Shown piece after piece: positions 20,186 to 28,963 of a stretch of 36,098 bases of DNA. The notes under the pieces were generated by a model. The model was not told the origin of the DNA. It ran no database searches and was given only the letters and a program-made list of their open reading frames with translations. The position numbers and the translations under genes were made by a program. Source of the DNA: Synechococcus sp. (GTDB taxonomy: Bacteria; Cyanobacteriota; Cyanobacteriia; PCC-6307; Cyanobiaceae); NCBI GenBank assembly GCA_012270465.1, contig JAAXIH010000044.1:1-36098 (forward strand), given 5' to 3'. How positions within the stretch are numbered: the stretch's first letter is position 1; every line of letters starts with the position of its first letter.

Positions 20186-20221
20186 GGTGTTGAAGTCAGT
20201 TGTTTAGTCGTGGCTCTCTAA

Positions 20222-20356
20222 TCAGCCGCTGATGCTGTTCATGAGCTTGGAGAAGGCATCCTTGCTCCCTTCTGGTTTGTTGATGGCGGGTTTGTCTTTG
20301 CCACTGGTGCTGAACCAGTTGACCAAACGACTGAAGAAATCAGCTTTTTGAGCCAT
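20222..20356 (-). CDS. Small ORF (44 aa) between nirA and focA
   Basis: Reads MAQKADFFSRLVNWFSTSGKDKPAINKPEGSKDAFSKLMNSISG*; same strand as nirA and focA; fills the intergenic space; below the ORF-track length cut-off. Confidence 0.6.
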   Translation of the reverse strand: MAQKADFFSRLVNWFSTSGKDKPAINKPEGSKDAFSKLMNSISG

Positions 20357-20437
20357 GGTGAGTGAGGTTGAGGTGGGCGGGTGATCAAAACTCAGCGGGG
20401 CTTCAAAAGATCAGCGCCGCCACTGATTTCGATCCGA

Positions 20438-23837: not shown

Positions 23838-23851
23838 GTATCGCCTGTTAC
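23838..23851. promoter_or_regulatory. NtcA-binding site (GTA-N8-TAC) upstream of the guanidine operon
   Basis: GTAtcgcctgtTAC begins 15 nt after the cobA stop; a weak -10-like GAGATT lies 23 nt downstream (23875-23880). Confidence 0.7.
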
Positions 23852-23884: not shown

Positions 23885-23995
23885 GTGCGGTTTGTGGAAA
23901 CCAACGCTCCCACCACCCCGTTTGGGTGAGTGAGCCAACCGTTTCCAACCAGCTTTTCCGGTTCGTCGGTGGAACAAAAGCCTGGGAGACCGCAC
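23885..23995 (+). ncRNA. Structured 5' leader, putative guanidine-I-like (or novel) riboswitch
   Basis: Closing stem GTGCGGT (23885-23891)/ACCGCAC (23989-23995). Arm A: GGAAAC/GTTTCC (23896-23901/23941-23946) enclosing GCTC/GAGC and CACCC/GGGTG. Arm B: GCTTTT/AAAAGC (23952-23957/23976-23981) enclosing GTTC/GAAC. The 3' segment GGAACAAAAGCCTGGGAGA resembles the ykkC 3' consensus GGGAUAAAAGCCCGGGAGA as recalled. Confidence 0.6.
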
Positions 23996-24014: not shown

Positions 24015-25205
24015 ATGACGTCCACAAGTGGCTCCCCCGGGGGCTTCGAGCGCAGCCATCCCAGTGAGGGGATGGCGGCCCTTGAGAAAGAGCAACGCCT
24101 GCCCCTCACCGGATGGCAGCAAGAGGTGGATCAGGCCAAGCGCTTGGGCTTGGAAGCAGCCCACAGCATCGTGGACCGCAACATCTCCACCTTTTCTCGC
24201 GGTGAGTTGCCCCATTACGCGGGCATCAACACCTTCATGAAGGCGCCCTATCTCGAGGACGTGAACCGCGTCGGCGAGTTTGATGTGGCGGTGGTGGGTA
24301 TTCCCCACGATTGCGGCACCACCTATCGCCCCGGTACGCGCTTTGGGCCCCAGGGAATTCGCAGAATTTCAGCGCTCTACACCCCTTACAACTACGAGAT
24401 GGGTGTGGATCTGCGCGAGCAAATCACCCTCTGTGATGTGGGTGATGTCTTCACTATTCCCGCCAATAACGAGAAAAGCTTCGATCAGATCTCCAAGGGG
24501 GTGGCCCATGTCTTTGCCAGCGGAGCCTTTCCGATTCTCTTGGGTGGTGATCACTCCATTGGGTTTCCAACAGTCCGCGGTGTTTGCCGCCATCTCGGCG
24601 ACAAGAAGGTGGGGATCATCCACTTCGATCGCCACGTCGATACCCAAGAGATCGATCTCGACGAACGGATGCACACCTGTCCGTGGTTCCATGCCACGAA
24701 CATGGCCAACGCACCGGCTCAGAACCTGGTGCAGCTGGGCATTGGTGGCTGGCAAGTGCCCCGCGAAGGGGTGAAGGTTTGCCGTGAGCGCGGCACCAAC
24801 GTGCTTACCGTCACCGACATCACGGAGATGGGTCTGGAGGCTGCGGCCCGTTACGCGATTGAACGGGCCACCGATGGCACCGATTGCGTCTACATCTCCT
24901 TTGATATCGACTGCATCGATGCTGGCTTTGTTCCTGGCACCGGTTGGCCAGAGCCGGGGGGGTTGTTGCCCCGCGAAGCCCTGAAGTTGCTCGAGCTGAT
25001 CGTTCGCAACGTGCCGGTCTGCGGCTTGGAGCTGGTGGAGGTGTCGCCTCCTTATGACATCAGTGATATGACCTCACTGATGGCCACTCGGGTGATCTGC
25101 GACACCATGGCCCACCTAGTGGTGAGCGGCCAGCTGCCCCGCAAAGAGAAGCCCAGTTGGATCAATCCCACTTGCAACATGCAGGTGGATCAGGCCTGGA
25201 GGTGA
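24015..25205 (+). CDS. gdmH: Ureohydrolase-family protein, probable Ni-dependent guanidine hydrolase (GdmH)
   Basis: Arginase/agmatinase fold motifs GGDHSIGFP, HFDRHVDTQEIDLDERMHTCPWFHATNM and SFDIDCIDAGFVPGTGWPEPGG; long N-terminal extension; followed by hypA/hypB-like genes and an ABC importer as in the Synechocystis sll1077 locus. Confidence 0.88.
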   Translation: MTSTSGSPGGFERSHPSEGMAALEKEQRLPLTGWQQEVDQAKRLGLEAAHSIVDRNISTFSRGELPHYAGINTFMKAPYLEDVNRVGEFDVAVVGIPHDCGTTYRPGTRFGPQGIRRISALYTPYNYEMGVDLREQITLCDVGDVFTIPANNEKSFDQISKGVAHVFASGAFPILLGGDHSIGFPTVRGVCRHLGDKKVGIIHFDRHVDTQEIDLDERMHTCPWFHATNMANAPAQNLVQLGIGGWQVPREGVKVCRERGTNVLTVTDITEMGLEAAARYAIERATDGTDCVYISFDIDCIDAGFVPGTGWPEPGGLLPREALKLLELIVRNVPVCGLELVEVSPPYDISDMTSLMATRVICDTMAHLVVSGQLPRKEKPSWINPTCNMQVDQAWR

Positions 25206-25209
25206 TCCC

Positions 25210-25611
25210 ATGCATGAGGTCGACATGACCAAGTGCCTGCTCCTGGCTCTGCAGCAATGGCGCGAGGAGCAGGCATCACCTCAGGCGATGGTGGACACCA
25301 TCCATTTGGAGGTGGGCCGCTTCACCTGCGTTGAGCCGGAGCAGCTGCGTTTCACTTTTCAAGCCGCTGTTGCTGGCAGCTGGCTCGATGGCGCCCAGCT
25401 GCAGATCGAAGAGATCCCCTTTGTGGGTCGTTGCTTGGCCTGCAATGGCACTTACAGCCCAACTCCTGAGGGCGCTTACCGCTCTCCCTGCTGCGATCAC
25501 CCACTGGAAGAGATCGTCAGCGGCCGCGAATTGCGAATTCGCAGCATCGACTACCGCACGTCCCTTCAGAGCGCTGTTGAGTCACAAGCTCTCTCGCTGC
25601 AGCGCGTCTGA
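25210..25611 (+). CDS. hypA: HypA-like nickel metallochaperone
   Basis: MHEVDMTKCLLLAL...VGRFTCVEPEQLRFTF...CLACNGTYSP..GAYRSPCCDHPLEEIVSGRELRIRSID; Zn-binding CxxC pairs. Confidence 0.9.
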   Translation: MHEVDMTKCLLLALQQWREEQASPQAMVDTIHLEVGRFTCVEPEQLRFTFQAAVAGSWLDGAQLQIEEIPFVGRCLACNGTYSPTPEGAYRSPCCDHPLEEIVSGRELRIRSIDYRTSLQSAVESQALSLQRV

Positions 25612-25641
25612 AGGCAAAACAGTCCTCCACCGTCTCTTGCC

Positions 25642-26340
25642 ATGCATTTGCCTTTAGAAGATCGCCTCGGCATGAATTTGCTGGCGGCCAATCAGCACCA
25701 AGCCGAGCACAACCGTGAGCACTTTGAGGCTTGGCAGGTGCTGGCCCTCAATGTGATGAGTAGCCCTGGGGCGGGCAAAACAGCGTTGCTGGAGCGCTCG
25801 TTGCCTCAGTTGGCTCAGGAGTGGTCGATGGCCGTCTTGGAGGGCGACATGACCACCCAATTGGATGCGGAGCGTTTGGAGGCTGTGGGGATTCCGGTGG
25901 TGCCGATCACCACCGGGCGCTCCTGTCATCTCGATGCCGCCATGGTCAGTGGTGGCTTGAAGTTGTTGCGTCAGCGGCTGAACCCAAATCAGCTGGATCT
26001 GCTCTGGGTTGAAAACGTGGGGAATTTGGTTTGCCCTGCTGAATTTGAAGTGGGTGAACATCACAAAGTGGCGCTGCTCAGCGTCACCGAAGGGGAAGAC
26101 AAGCCGTTGAAGTACCCGCTGATGTTTCGCCAGGCTGATGTGGTCCTTATCACCAAGATTGATCTGTTGCCGTATCTGCCTGTTGAGCTTGAGCAGATTC
26201 GCCGCAACATCCACAGCATCAATCCCAATGCCAGCGTGATTCCGGTGTCTGCTCTCAGTGGTGAGGGGATTGATGTGTGGCACGCCTGGCTGCGTTCGGC
26301 TCGCCAAAACACCTTGCAACCTGCTCTGGCCATGGCCTGA
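25642..26340 (+). CDS. hypB: HypB-like GTPase nickel metallochaperone
   Basis: [20 protein letters not shown] (P-loop), [59 protein letters not shown]. Confidence 0.93.
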
Positions 26341-26375
26341 GCAGCGTTCTTGCGTGTTGTCCCTACTCCAATGTC

Positions 26376-27374
26376 ATGACCAAACAACTTCGAAATCTCT
26401 TATTCGCCAGTTTGGCGGTGGTGCTGGCTGTGGCCTGCTCCAAGCCTTCCACATCCATTGGCGGTGAGCCCATTGTTTTGGGTTACAGCAACTGGGCTGG
26501 CTGGTGGCCTTGGGCCATCGCTGTTGAAGAGAAGCTGTTTGAAAAGAATGGCGTCAACGTTGAGATGAAATGGTTTGACGGTTATGTGCAGTCGATGGAA
26601 ACATTTGCCGCAGGCAAAATCGATGGCAACTCCCAAACCCTGAATGACACCATCTCTTTCTTGCCTGGTGAGAATGGTGGTCAAGTTGTTGTGCTGGTGA
26701 ATGACAATTCAGCTGGCAATGATCAAATCATTGCTGATGAGGATATTGAGACCATCAGTGATCTGAAAGGAAAAACGGTCGCGGTTGAAGAAGGTGTTGT
26801 TGATGATTTCCTGCTGAGCCTGGCCCTGCGCGATGTGGGCCTTAGCCGTGATGACGTGATCATCAAGGGCATGCCGACCGACCAGGCTGCAACCGCCTTT
26901 GCTGCTGGTCAGGTGGATGCTGTTGGCGCATTCCCTCCTTACACCGGCACCGCCATGCAGCGTGAGGGTGCCCATGTCATCGCCAGCTCCAAGGAATACC
27001 CCGGTGCCATCCCTGATTTGTTGGCCGTCAGCGGTGATCTGATCAAAGAACGTCCTGAGGATGTTCAGAAGATCGTTGATACCTGGTGGGATGTGCGCGA
27101 GTTCATGGCTGCCAATCCCGAAAAATCGGAGCAGATCATGGCCAAGCGTGCTGGCATCCCCACTGCCGAATACGAGCAGTACAAGGCCGGCACCACCTTC
27201 TTCACGGTGGAGCAAAACGTTGAGGCGTTTAGTGATGGTCAGGGGATGCAGTTCATGCCCTATGCCGCCCAGAAGATGGCTGACTTCATGGTCTCAGTCG
27301 GCTTCATTCCGGAAAAGCCGGATATGAGCAACCTGTTTGATCCCTCCTTCATCAAGACCATCGCGGCGTCTTGA
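26376..27374 (+). CDS. ABC transporter substrate-binding lipoprotein (NMT1/TauA/SsuA family), probable guanidine importer
   Basis: Lipobox LAVAC; GGEPIVLGYSNWAGWWPWAIAVEEKLFEKNGVNVEMKWFDGYVQSMETFAAGKIDGNSQTLND. Confidence 0.88.
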   Translation: MTKQLRNLLFASLAVVLAVACSKPSTSIGGEPIVLGYSNWAGWWPWAIAVEEKLFEKNGVNVEMKWFDGYVQSMETFAAGKIDGNSQTLNDTISFLPGENGGQVVVLVNDNSAGNDQIIADEDIETISDLKGKTVAVEEGVVDDFLLSLALRDVGLSRDDVIIKGMPTDQAATAFAAGQVDAVGAFPPYTGTAMQREGAHVIASSKEYPGAIPDLLAVSGDLIKERPEDVQKIVDTWWDVREFMAANPEKSEQIMAKRAGIPTAEYEQYKAGTTFFTVEQNVEAFSDGQGMQFMPYAAQKMADFMVSVGFIPEKPDMSNLFDPSFIKTIAAS

Positions 27375-28192
27375 TGGCGGCGTCAGCAACGGATGGCGGG
27401 GGCGTTAAGCCCCTGCCTTTGCTGTCGATTGGAGCCACTCCATCGCCCTTGGTGCGCAGCGGGTTGCAGGTGTCGTCCCTGCTGATCCCGCTGTTGCTTT
27501 GGACGGTGATTAGTGCCCTGGAACTGGTGGACGGCAAATTTTTGCCGTCTCCAGCAGCGGTGCTGGAGTCGCTCGCCTCGATGGCACGGGAGGGGATCCT
27601 GTTTCAGGACATCGTGGCCAGCACTGGCCGGGTGTTTGCCGGCTTTTTCTTGGCCACTCTTGTGGCGGTGCCCTTGGGCATCTGCATGGGCGTCTATCCC
27701 GCGATCTGCGCCCTGTGTGAGCCCTTGATCGCGATGCTGCGCTACATGCCAGCCGCTGCGTTCATTCCCCTGCTCATCATCTATTTGGGCATCGGGGAAG
27801 AACCCAAGATTGCGCTGATTTTTCTAGGCACTGTTTATTTCAACGTCTTGATGGTGATGGATGCCGTCAAGTTCGTTCCCAAAGAGCTCATTGAAACCAC
27901 CCTCACCCTTGGTGGCCGCGGCCGCCAGGTGTTGGTGCAGGTGGTGGCGCGCTACAGCCTGCCCAGCATCATCGACACCCTGCGCATCAACATCGCCACC
28001 TCTTGGAACTTGGTGGTTGTGGCCGAACTGGTGGCCGCTGAGGTGGGCTTGGGCAAACGCATTCAGCTGGCGCAGCGTTTCTTCCGCACCGATCAGATCT
28101 TTGCCGAGTTGATCGTGCTGGGGTTGATCGGCTTTGCCATCGACATGGGCTTTCGGTTGTTGTTGCGGTTGTCGTGCCGCTGGGCCCTGTAA
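27374..28192 (+). CDS. ABC transporter permease (SsuC/TauC-like), probable guanidine importer
   Basis: TGATG overlap with the preceding gene; FIPLLIIYLGIGEEPKIALIFLGTVYFNVLM EAA-loop region typical of SsuC/TauC permeases. Confidence 0.88.
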   Translation: MAASATDGGGVKPLPLLSIGATPSPLVRSGLQVSSLLIPLLLWTVISALELVDGKFLPSPAAVLESLASMAREGILFQDIVASTGRVFAGFFLATLVAVPLGICMGVYPAICALCEPLIAMLRYMPAAAFIPLLIIYLGIGEEPKIALIFLGTVYFNVLMVMDAVKFVPKELIETTLTLGGRGRQVLVQVVARYSLPSIIDTLRINIATSWNLVVVAELVAAEVGLGKRIQLAQRFFRTDQIFAELIVLGLIGFAIDMGFRLLLRLSCRWAL

Positions 28193-28195
28193 GCG

Positions 28196-28963
28196 ATGGA
28201 ATTGCAGGTTCGCCATCTCAGCAAAACCTTTGGTTCGGGCCAGCACCGCAAAGAGGTGTTGCGCGACATCAGTTTTGCGCTGCGCTCTGGCGAGTTTCTT
28301 TCGTTGGTGGGAAGTTCAGGCTCAGGGAAGAGCACAATCCTGCGCTTGATAGCGGGTCTTGAGCAGCCCAGTTCAGGGCAGGTGCTGGTGGATGGACAAG
28401 CCGTTCAGGGTCCGGGCCCTGATCGCGGCATGGTTTTTCAGAAATACAGCCTCTACCCGTGGCTGAGTGCGGCTGAGAACGTTGCCTTTGGCATGCGCCT
28501 GCAGGGCTTGCCGCAGCGCGACATCAAGGAGCGGACCGCCTACTTCCTCGAGGTGGTGGGTCTGCAGGATGCCGCCAGAAAGCTGCCCCGTGAGCTCTCG
28601 GGCGGAATGCAACAACGGGTCGCCATCGCCCGCACCTTGGCCACCAATCCCAAGGTGTTGCTGCTCGATGAGCCCTTTGGCGCCTTGGATTTGCAGATTC
28701 GCGAGGCCATGCAGGATTTCTTGTTGCAGCTCTGGCAGCGCACTGGCCTCACTGTGTTGTTGATCACCCACGATGTGGAGGAGGCCTTGGTGCTGGCCCA
28801 GCGGGTGCATGTGTTGGCGCCTCACCCCGGCCGGATTGTCAGCACGGTGGAGGTGGATCTCGACAAGAGTGATCTCAATCAACTGCGCTTGAGTGCGGCA
28901 TTTCTGGAGAAGAGGCGCACCTTGGCTGGGGTGTTGCGGCAATTGGAGCCCGCGCTGGTCTGA
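28196..28963 (+). CDS. ABC transporter ATP-binding protein (SsuB/TauB-like), probable guanidine importer
   Basis: GSSGSGKST Walker A, ELSGGMQQRVAIART signature, VLLLDEPFGALD Walker B. Confidence 0.93.
   Translation: MELQVRHLSKTFGSGQHRKEVLRDISFALRSGEFLSLVGSSGSGKSTILRLIAGLEQPSSGQVLVDGQAVQGPGPDRGMVFQKYSLYPWLSAAENVAFGMRLQGLPQRDIKERTAYFLEVVGLQDAARKLPRELSGGMQQRVAIARTLATNPKVLLLDEPFGALDLQIREAMQDFLLQLWQRTGLTVLLITHDVEEALVLAQRVHVLAPHPGRIVSTVEVDLDKSDLNQLRLSAAFLEKRRTLAGVLRQLEPALV

Follow-up and report, generated by a model that had tools for sequence, protein, structure and literature searches.

A guanidine-I riboswitch derivative in front of gdmH that may have been decommissioned in the Synechococcus RCC307 lineage

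The RNA leader in front of the guanidine hydrolase gene gdmH in a 36,098-nt stretch of Synechococcus sp. DNA (contig JAAXIH010000044.1, hereafter the window) is homologous to guanidine-I riboswitches, has lost parts of their ligand pocket and is shared in this form only with Synechococcus RCC307. On balance, we favour the explanation that a guanidine-I riboswitch was decommissioned in the RCC307 lineage, its RNA being locked in a likely ON shape and gdmH being left under promoter control.

Results

A structured leader precedes a guanidinase operon

The gene behind the leader, described as GdmH-like in a first-pass annotation of the window, was confirmed as such by its match to PDB entries 7esr and 7oi1, which are annotated as probable agmatinase 2 and which we take to be the Synechocystis guanidine hydrolase Sll1077/GdmH. 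It lies in a guanidine-type context (gdmH-hypA-hypB-ABC), with hypA/hypB-like genes, an ABC transporter and then a Rieske protein gene downstream (Table 1). Between the window and RCC307, gdmH has a single amino-acid difference (dN 0.0011, dS 0.28, with 18.9% of fourfold sites differing) and is evidently under strong purifying selection. The function of GdmH has been described previously (PMC8390497). The same genes make up the guanidinase cluster of marine picocyanobacteria, for which the accessible part of the published description places a ykkC riboswitch upstream in Synechococcus reference genomes and gives no account of a loss in the RCC307 lineage or of an NtcA box (PMC10119275).

The window leader had a minimum free energy of -45.9 kcal/mol (z -2.86), with only 1 of 200 shuffles equally stable, and all the stems named at first pass were present: GTGCGGT/ACCGCAC (23885-23891/23989-23995), GGAAAC/GTTTCC (23896-23901/23941-23946), GCTC/GAGC (23906-23909/23932-23935), CACCC/GGGTG (23914-23918/23924-23928) and, in the 3' arm, GCTTTT/AAAAGC with inner GTTC/GAAC. 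The first of these, proposed as a 7-bp closing stem, exists in its letters but extends beyond the element: its outermost GT (23885-23886) is unmatched in RCC307, which has AG there, and, judged by promoter spacing, probably lies before the transcript start, and on these grounds the element was trimmed from 23885-23995 to 23887-23993. The two proposed nested arms likewise both occur in the sequence, but only the remainder of the structure has support across orthologous gdmH leaders: P0, P1 and P2 have counterparts there, and P1, P1b and P2 covary in the canonical leader alignment, whereas the GCTTTT/AAAAGC plus GTTC/GAAC arm, complete only in the window and RCC307, was rejected as a conserved structure.

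Table 1 Features of the gdmH leader and operon in the window (positions in the window).
Feature	Position	Strand	Remarks
NtcA-type box GTATCGCCTGTTAC (GTA-N8-TAC)	23838-23851	+	centre 42 nt upstream of P0
P0 5' strand GCGGTTT	23887-23893	+	TTT lengthens P0 to 7 pairs
P1 5' strand GGAAAC, pairs with 23941-23946	23896-23901	+	orthologous to the covarying guanidine-I P1
5' core remnant CAACGCTCCCA (canonical CTAGGGTTCCG)	23902-23912	+	6/11 kept; RCC307 4/11
P1b hairpin GCTC/GAGC + CACCC/GGGTG	23906-23935	+	
Middle core remnant GTGAGCCAACCG (canonical CTGGTCCRAGAG)	23930-23941	+	AG-bulge equivalents (23939-23940) CC; RCC307 CT
P2 AACCAG...CCGGUU	23947-23963	+	5/6 pairs kept
3' core: P3 remnant, pocket guanines, P0 3' strand AGACCGC (23987-23993)	23964-23993	+	identical in RCC307
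Spacer to start codon	23994-24014	+	predicted free in the window leader
gdmH, guanidine hydrolase	24015-25205	+	PDB 7esr/7oi1 match, E 4e-230
hypA- and hypB-like nickel chaperone genes	25210-26340	+	guanidinase operon
Putative guanidine ABC transporter (substrate-binding protein, permease, ATPase)	26277-28963	+	nitrate/taurine type

The leader is orthologous to canonical guanidine-I leaders of the family

We screened 201 genomes of the family, found gdmH in 75 of them and retrieved 74 gdmH leaders. A canonical guanidine-I leader, with the motifs CTAGGGTTCCG, CTGGTCCRAGAG and GCACGGAGGGAYAAAAGCCCGGGAGACCGC or close variants and a closing GCGG/CCGC helix (named P0), was present in 71/74; the three exceptions were the window, RCC307 (G024, CT978603.1) and one further genome (G185). 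In the latter (L022 / L091), gdmH-hypA-hypB stands behind a different gene, with neither a guanidine-I riboswitch nor an NtcA-type box. Of 400 family genomes searched, just two, that of the window and RCC307, had the variant leader. The earlier idea of a picocyanobacterial guanidine-I variant with a rebuilt 5' half was thus correct as to derivation but not as to generality, a general picocyanobacterial subtype being ruled out by the 71/74 canonical leaders and by the restriction of the variant to 2/400 genomes. An assembly artefact was also ruled out, since the complete RCC307 genome has the variant leader too; no canonical guanidine-I element was found elsewhere in that genome.

The best Rfam match of the window leader was Guanidine-I (RF00442), with 20.6 bits against a gathering cut-off of 63, so that the standard model does miss the element, as had been anticipated. 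The RCC307 leader scored 24.0 bits and the canonical relatives 75-90 bits. No further Rfam riboswitch family matched the window leader at E<=10, and no sequence in the whole window rose above any Rfam cut-off. A family covariance model built from the canonical leader alignment matched 23887-23993 along the full length of the model (31.7 bits, E 5.6e-6), giving 35.4 bits for RCC307 and 82-110 bits for the canonical leaders. Moreover, the gene order nirA-cbiX-cobA-leader-gdmH-hypA-hypB-ABC is common to the window, RCC307 and a genome of the same genus as the window (G097), whose leader is canonical (80.3 bits). Because of the end-to-end match to the family model and of this canonical leader in the same gene order, the window leader is of common descent with the guanidine-I leaders.

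Ligand contacts are lost, P1 and pocket guanines are retained

As near-invariant we counted the 52 positions shared by 95% or more of the canonical leaders. The window keeps 37/52 and has lost 15/52; the losses take in both AG-bulge residues, the core of P1a and one half of the pairs in P3. The AG-bulge (G45/A46 equivalents, 23939-23940, with the structure numbering mapped by inference) reads CC in the window and CT in RCC307; the ligand-contact roles of the AG-bulge and pocket have been reported (PMC11661666, PMC6031431). The 5' cores CUAGGGUUCCG and CUGGUCCRAGAG keep 6/11 and 6/11 of their near-invariant positions, in agreement with the first-pass observation that the 5' hallmarks of guanidine-I are absent. 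P1a is broken, the C69-equivalent is lost, and P3 around the S-turn is reduced to 2/4 pairs, of which one is G-U, and no compensating changes are seen. P1 keeps 6/6 pairs and P2 5/6, P0 also persists, and the P3 pocket guanines remain at 23968-23969 (GG of CACGG) and 23984-23985 (GG of CCCGGGAG).

Compared with guanidine-I (ykkC subtype 1, RF00442; found before gdmH/sll1077 in cyanobacteria), the window leader shares the position before gdmH, the P0/P1/P1b/P2 layout, several pocket guanines and the AAAAGCC..GGGAGACCGC 3' core, a resemblance that had been rightly recognised at first pass, but the AG-bulge, the CUAGGGUUCCG/CUGGUCC core and two of the four P3 pairs are gone, and the leader lies below the Rfam cut-off and is predicted to be P0-closed without ligand. 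Judged by these features, it descends from a guanidine-I riboswitch but falls short of a guanidine-I sensor.

The two halves of the leader changed unequally

Between the window and RCC307, 5/54 bases differ in the 5' half of the leader, including 3/23 core positions, one of which is the A46 equivalent. This rate approaches that of fourfold sites (0.189), and pairs of canonical leaders at a comparable distance show almost no change in their cores. Across the 3' half and the spacer together 0/74 bases differ, which would be expected in ~0.7% of cases if this stretch changed at the usual intergenic rate of about 6.5%. The pocket side looks unconstrained and the 3' side looks constrained, the latter with moderate confidence. 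A reading of strong selection from the 97-nt identical run was weakened by the presence of 12 identical runs of at least 97 nt in the 33.7 kb aligned.

In the same comparison, the window genome and RCC307 share a 258-nt identical run at the nirA/focA intergenic region (20186-20437) and the 5' part of nirA; a single base in 252 nt differs there, whereas most other intergenics differ at about 6% of bases, which may reflect either recent recombination or a strongly conserved leader. As to a donor for the 5' half of the gdmH leader, matches of 17-25 nt elsewhere in the genus were weak and unconnected and were taken as chance.

The variant leader is predicted to be P0-closed

Fold probabilities were calculated with ViennaRNA, which ignores tertiary contacts and ligand. 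The median P0 probability of the canonical leaders was 0.84 for the aptamer alone and 0.00 with 20 nt of spacer (0/71 above 0.4), the spacer pairing mainly with the P3/pocket strand in many leaders of this unliganded model; for the variant with spacer it was 0.96-0.97. The free energy of the closed versus the open P0 state was +8.3 kcal/mol (canonical median, 71/71 above zero) and -2.0 kcal/mol in the variant, with the same sign when either spacer (canonical or variant) was attached. Contributors to closure in the variant were the P1 arm, P2/3' core and the UUU extension of P0, which by UUU/AGA adds three pairs in both species, at a position where canonical leaders mostly have A-rich letters. 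With dangles off, the closed state of the variant became uphill by about 0.4-1.4 kcal/mol (near balance), all canonical leaders staying positive, and with longer coding sequence the variant P0 probability dropped to ~0.4 at some lengths. The start region was unpaired with probability 0.68 in the variant (canonical 5-95% range 0.24-0.65).

When canonical leaders were decayed at random, a P0 probability of at least 0.95 arose in 4-6% of trials, and in 13% of shuffled variants. The modelled P0-closed lock is thus unusual, yet not conclusive, and may be accidental in origin. For the canonical leaders, the modelled pairing between spacer and P3 strand is a plausible translational ON platform in picocyanobacteria.

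An NtcA-type box lies upstream of the leaders

The NtcA consensus is GTA-N8-TAC. A box of this type, with 0-1 mismatch, was present in 73/73 leaders tested (L003-L076, variant included), its centre standing at -41/-42 from the P0 start in 71 leaders and at -37 in 2, and was found anywhere in ~20% of shuffled upstream regions. The window and RCC307 have the same box, with no mismatch. Its distance from P0 would suit an NtcA-activated promoter whose transcript begins at P0, the probable start in the window being near 23887; NtcA binding itself we infer from the consensus. This arrangement suggests that throughout the family gdmH is under dual control, by guanidine as well as by nitrogen status.

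Discussion

In the mechanism that we propose, the spacer of canonical leaders would pair with the P3/pocket strand when guanidine is absent, and bound guanidine would hold the aptamer in its P0/P3-closed form and release the start region, a translational ON switch suggested by modelling. In the window lineage, the contacts of the AG-bulge, the core of P1a and two of the four P3 pairs were lost to substitutions; P1 stayed complete and P0 was lengthened by UUU/AGA. Because of these changes, the RNA is predicted to remain P0-closed with an open start region, guanidine or not; regulation of gdmH would then be left to the promoter, probably through NtcA and nitrogen status. In this scheme the ON polarity is likely, and the response to guanidine would be lost. 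Sensing has more probably been lost than replaced by a new or divergent sensor, because ligand contacts are missing and because the AG-bulge position is C in one sister and U in the other. Against decommissioning, the two related sequences represent only one evolutionary event, and the retained pocket guanines, together with a 3' half and spacer unchanged at all 74 bases, hint at a continuing function.

A doubtful but serious contender is plain neutral decay, by which the leader would be a drifting remnant without a regulatory role of its own and the P0-closed fold incidental. Such drift is consistent with the uncompensated breaks in P1a, P2 and P3, the near-neutral rate of the 5' half, the frequency of P0-closed folds after random decay (4-6%) or shuffling (13%) and the repeated occurrence of long identical runs; it fits poorly with the unchanged 74 bases, the intact P1 and a P0 that is three pairs longer in both species.

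It is unlikely that the leader of the RCC307 lineage functions as a riboswitch through a pocket rebuilt on the ykkC scaffold, recognising either guanidine by a new mode or a different nitrogen metabolite; if it did, the frozen 3' half and the extended P0 would be parts of the new sensor. In the guanidine-sensing form, which we regard as quite unlikely, the 5' half would have been rebuilt and guanidine held by the retained P3 guanines. Both GG dinucleotides of the pocket are kept, the 3' core is frozen between the two species and the gene context is unchanged, but the AG-bulge, whose residues touch the ligand and close off the pocket (PMC11661666), reads CC in one species and CT in the other, the C69-equivalent and P3 pairs are lost, and the predicted fold is independent of ligand.

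A ykkC variant of changed specificity, comparable to the PRPP/ppGpp types and responding to a ligand such as urea, methylguanidine or a nitrogen-status metabolite, is very unlikely. The leader does share with ykkC subtype 2 a pyrimidine at the A46 equivalent, a published mark of that subtype (PMC6031431), and a P0 helix, here lengthened, as PRPP aptamers possess one. However, a P0 also occurs in the canonical guanidine-I leaders of the family, the pyrimidine is not conserved (C in one species, U in the other), and the pocket side is otherwise disrupted, including P1a and P3 pairs; moreover, the leader stands before a guanidinase operon rather than purine or amino-acid genes, only two sequences carry it, and it has no match at E<=10 to another Rfam riboswitch family. 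The independent aptamer considered at first pass, a new class in keeping with the score below the Rfam cut-off, is scarcely credible and largely refuted by orthology, as the family model covers the whole element and its place and helices are those of the canonical guanidine-I leaders.

Riboswitches are catalogued mostly as working elements, and the window leader, in our preferred reading of a decommissioned guanidine-I switch, seems to have been disabled in place: gdmH is under strong selection, close relatives have an intact switch, and the leader was remodelled instead of deleted. The case also cautions that a leader homologous to a riboswitch need not be a sensor. Our data suggest that gdmH is normally controlled by both nitrogen status and guanidine, and that the RCC307 lineage may have retained only the control by nitrogen status.
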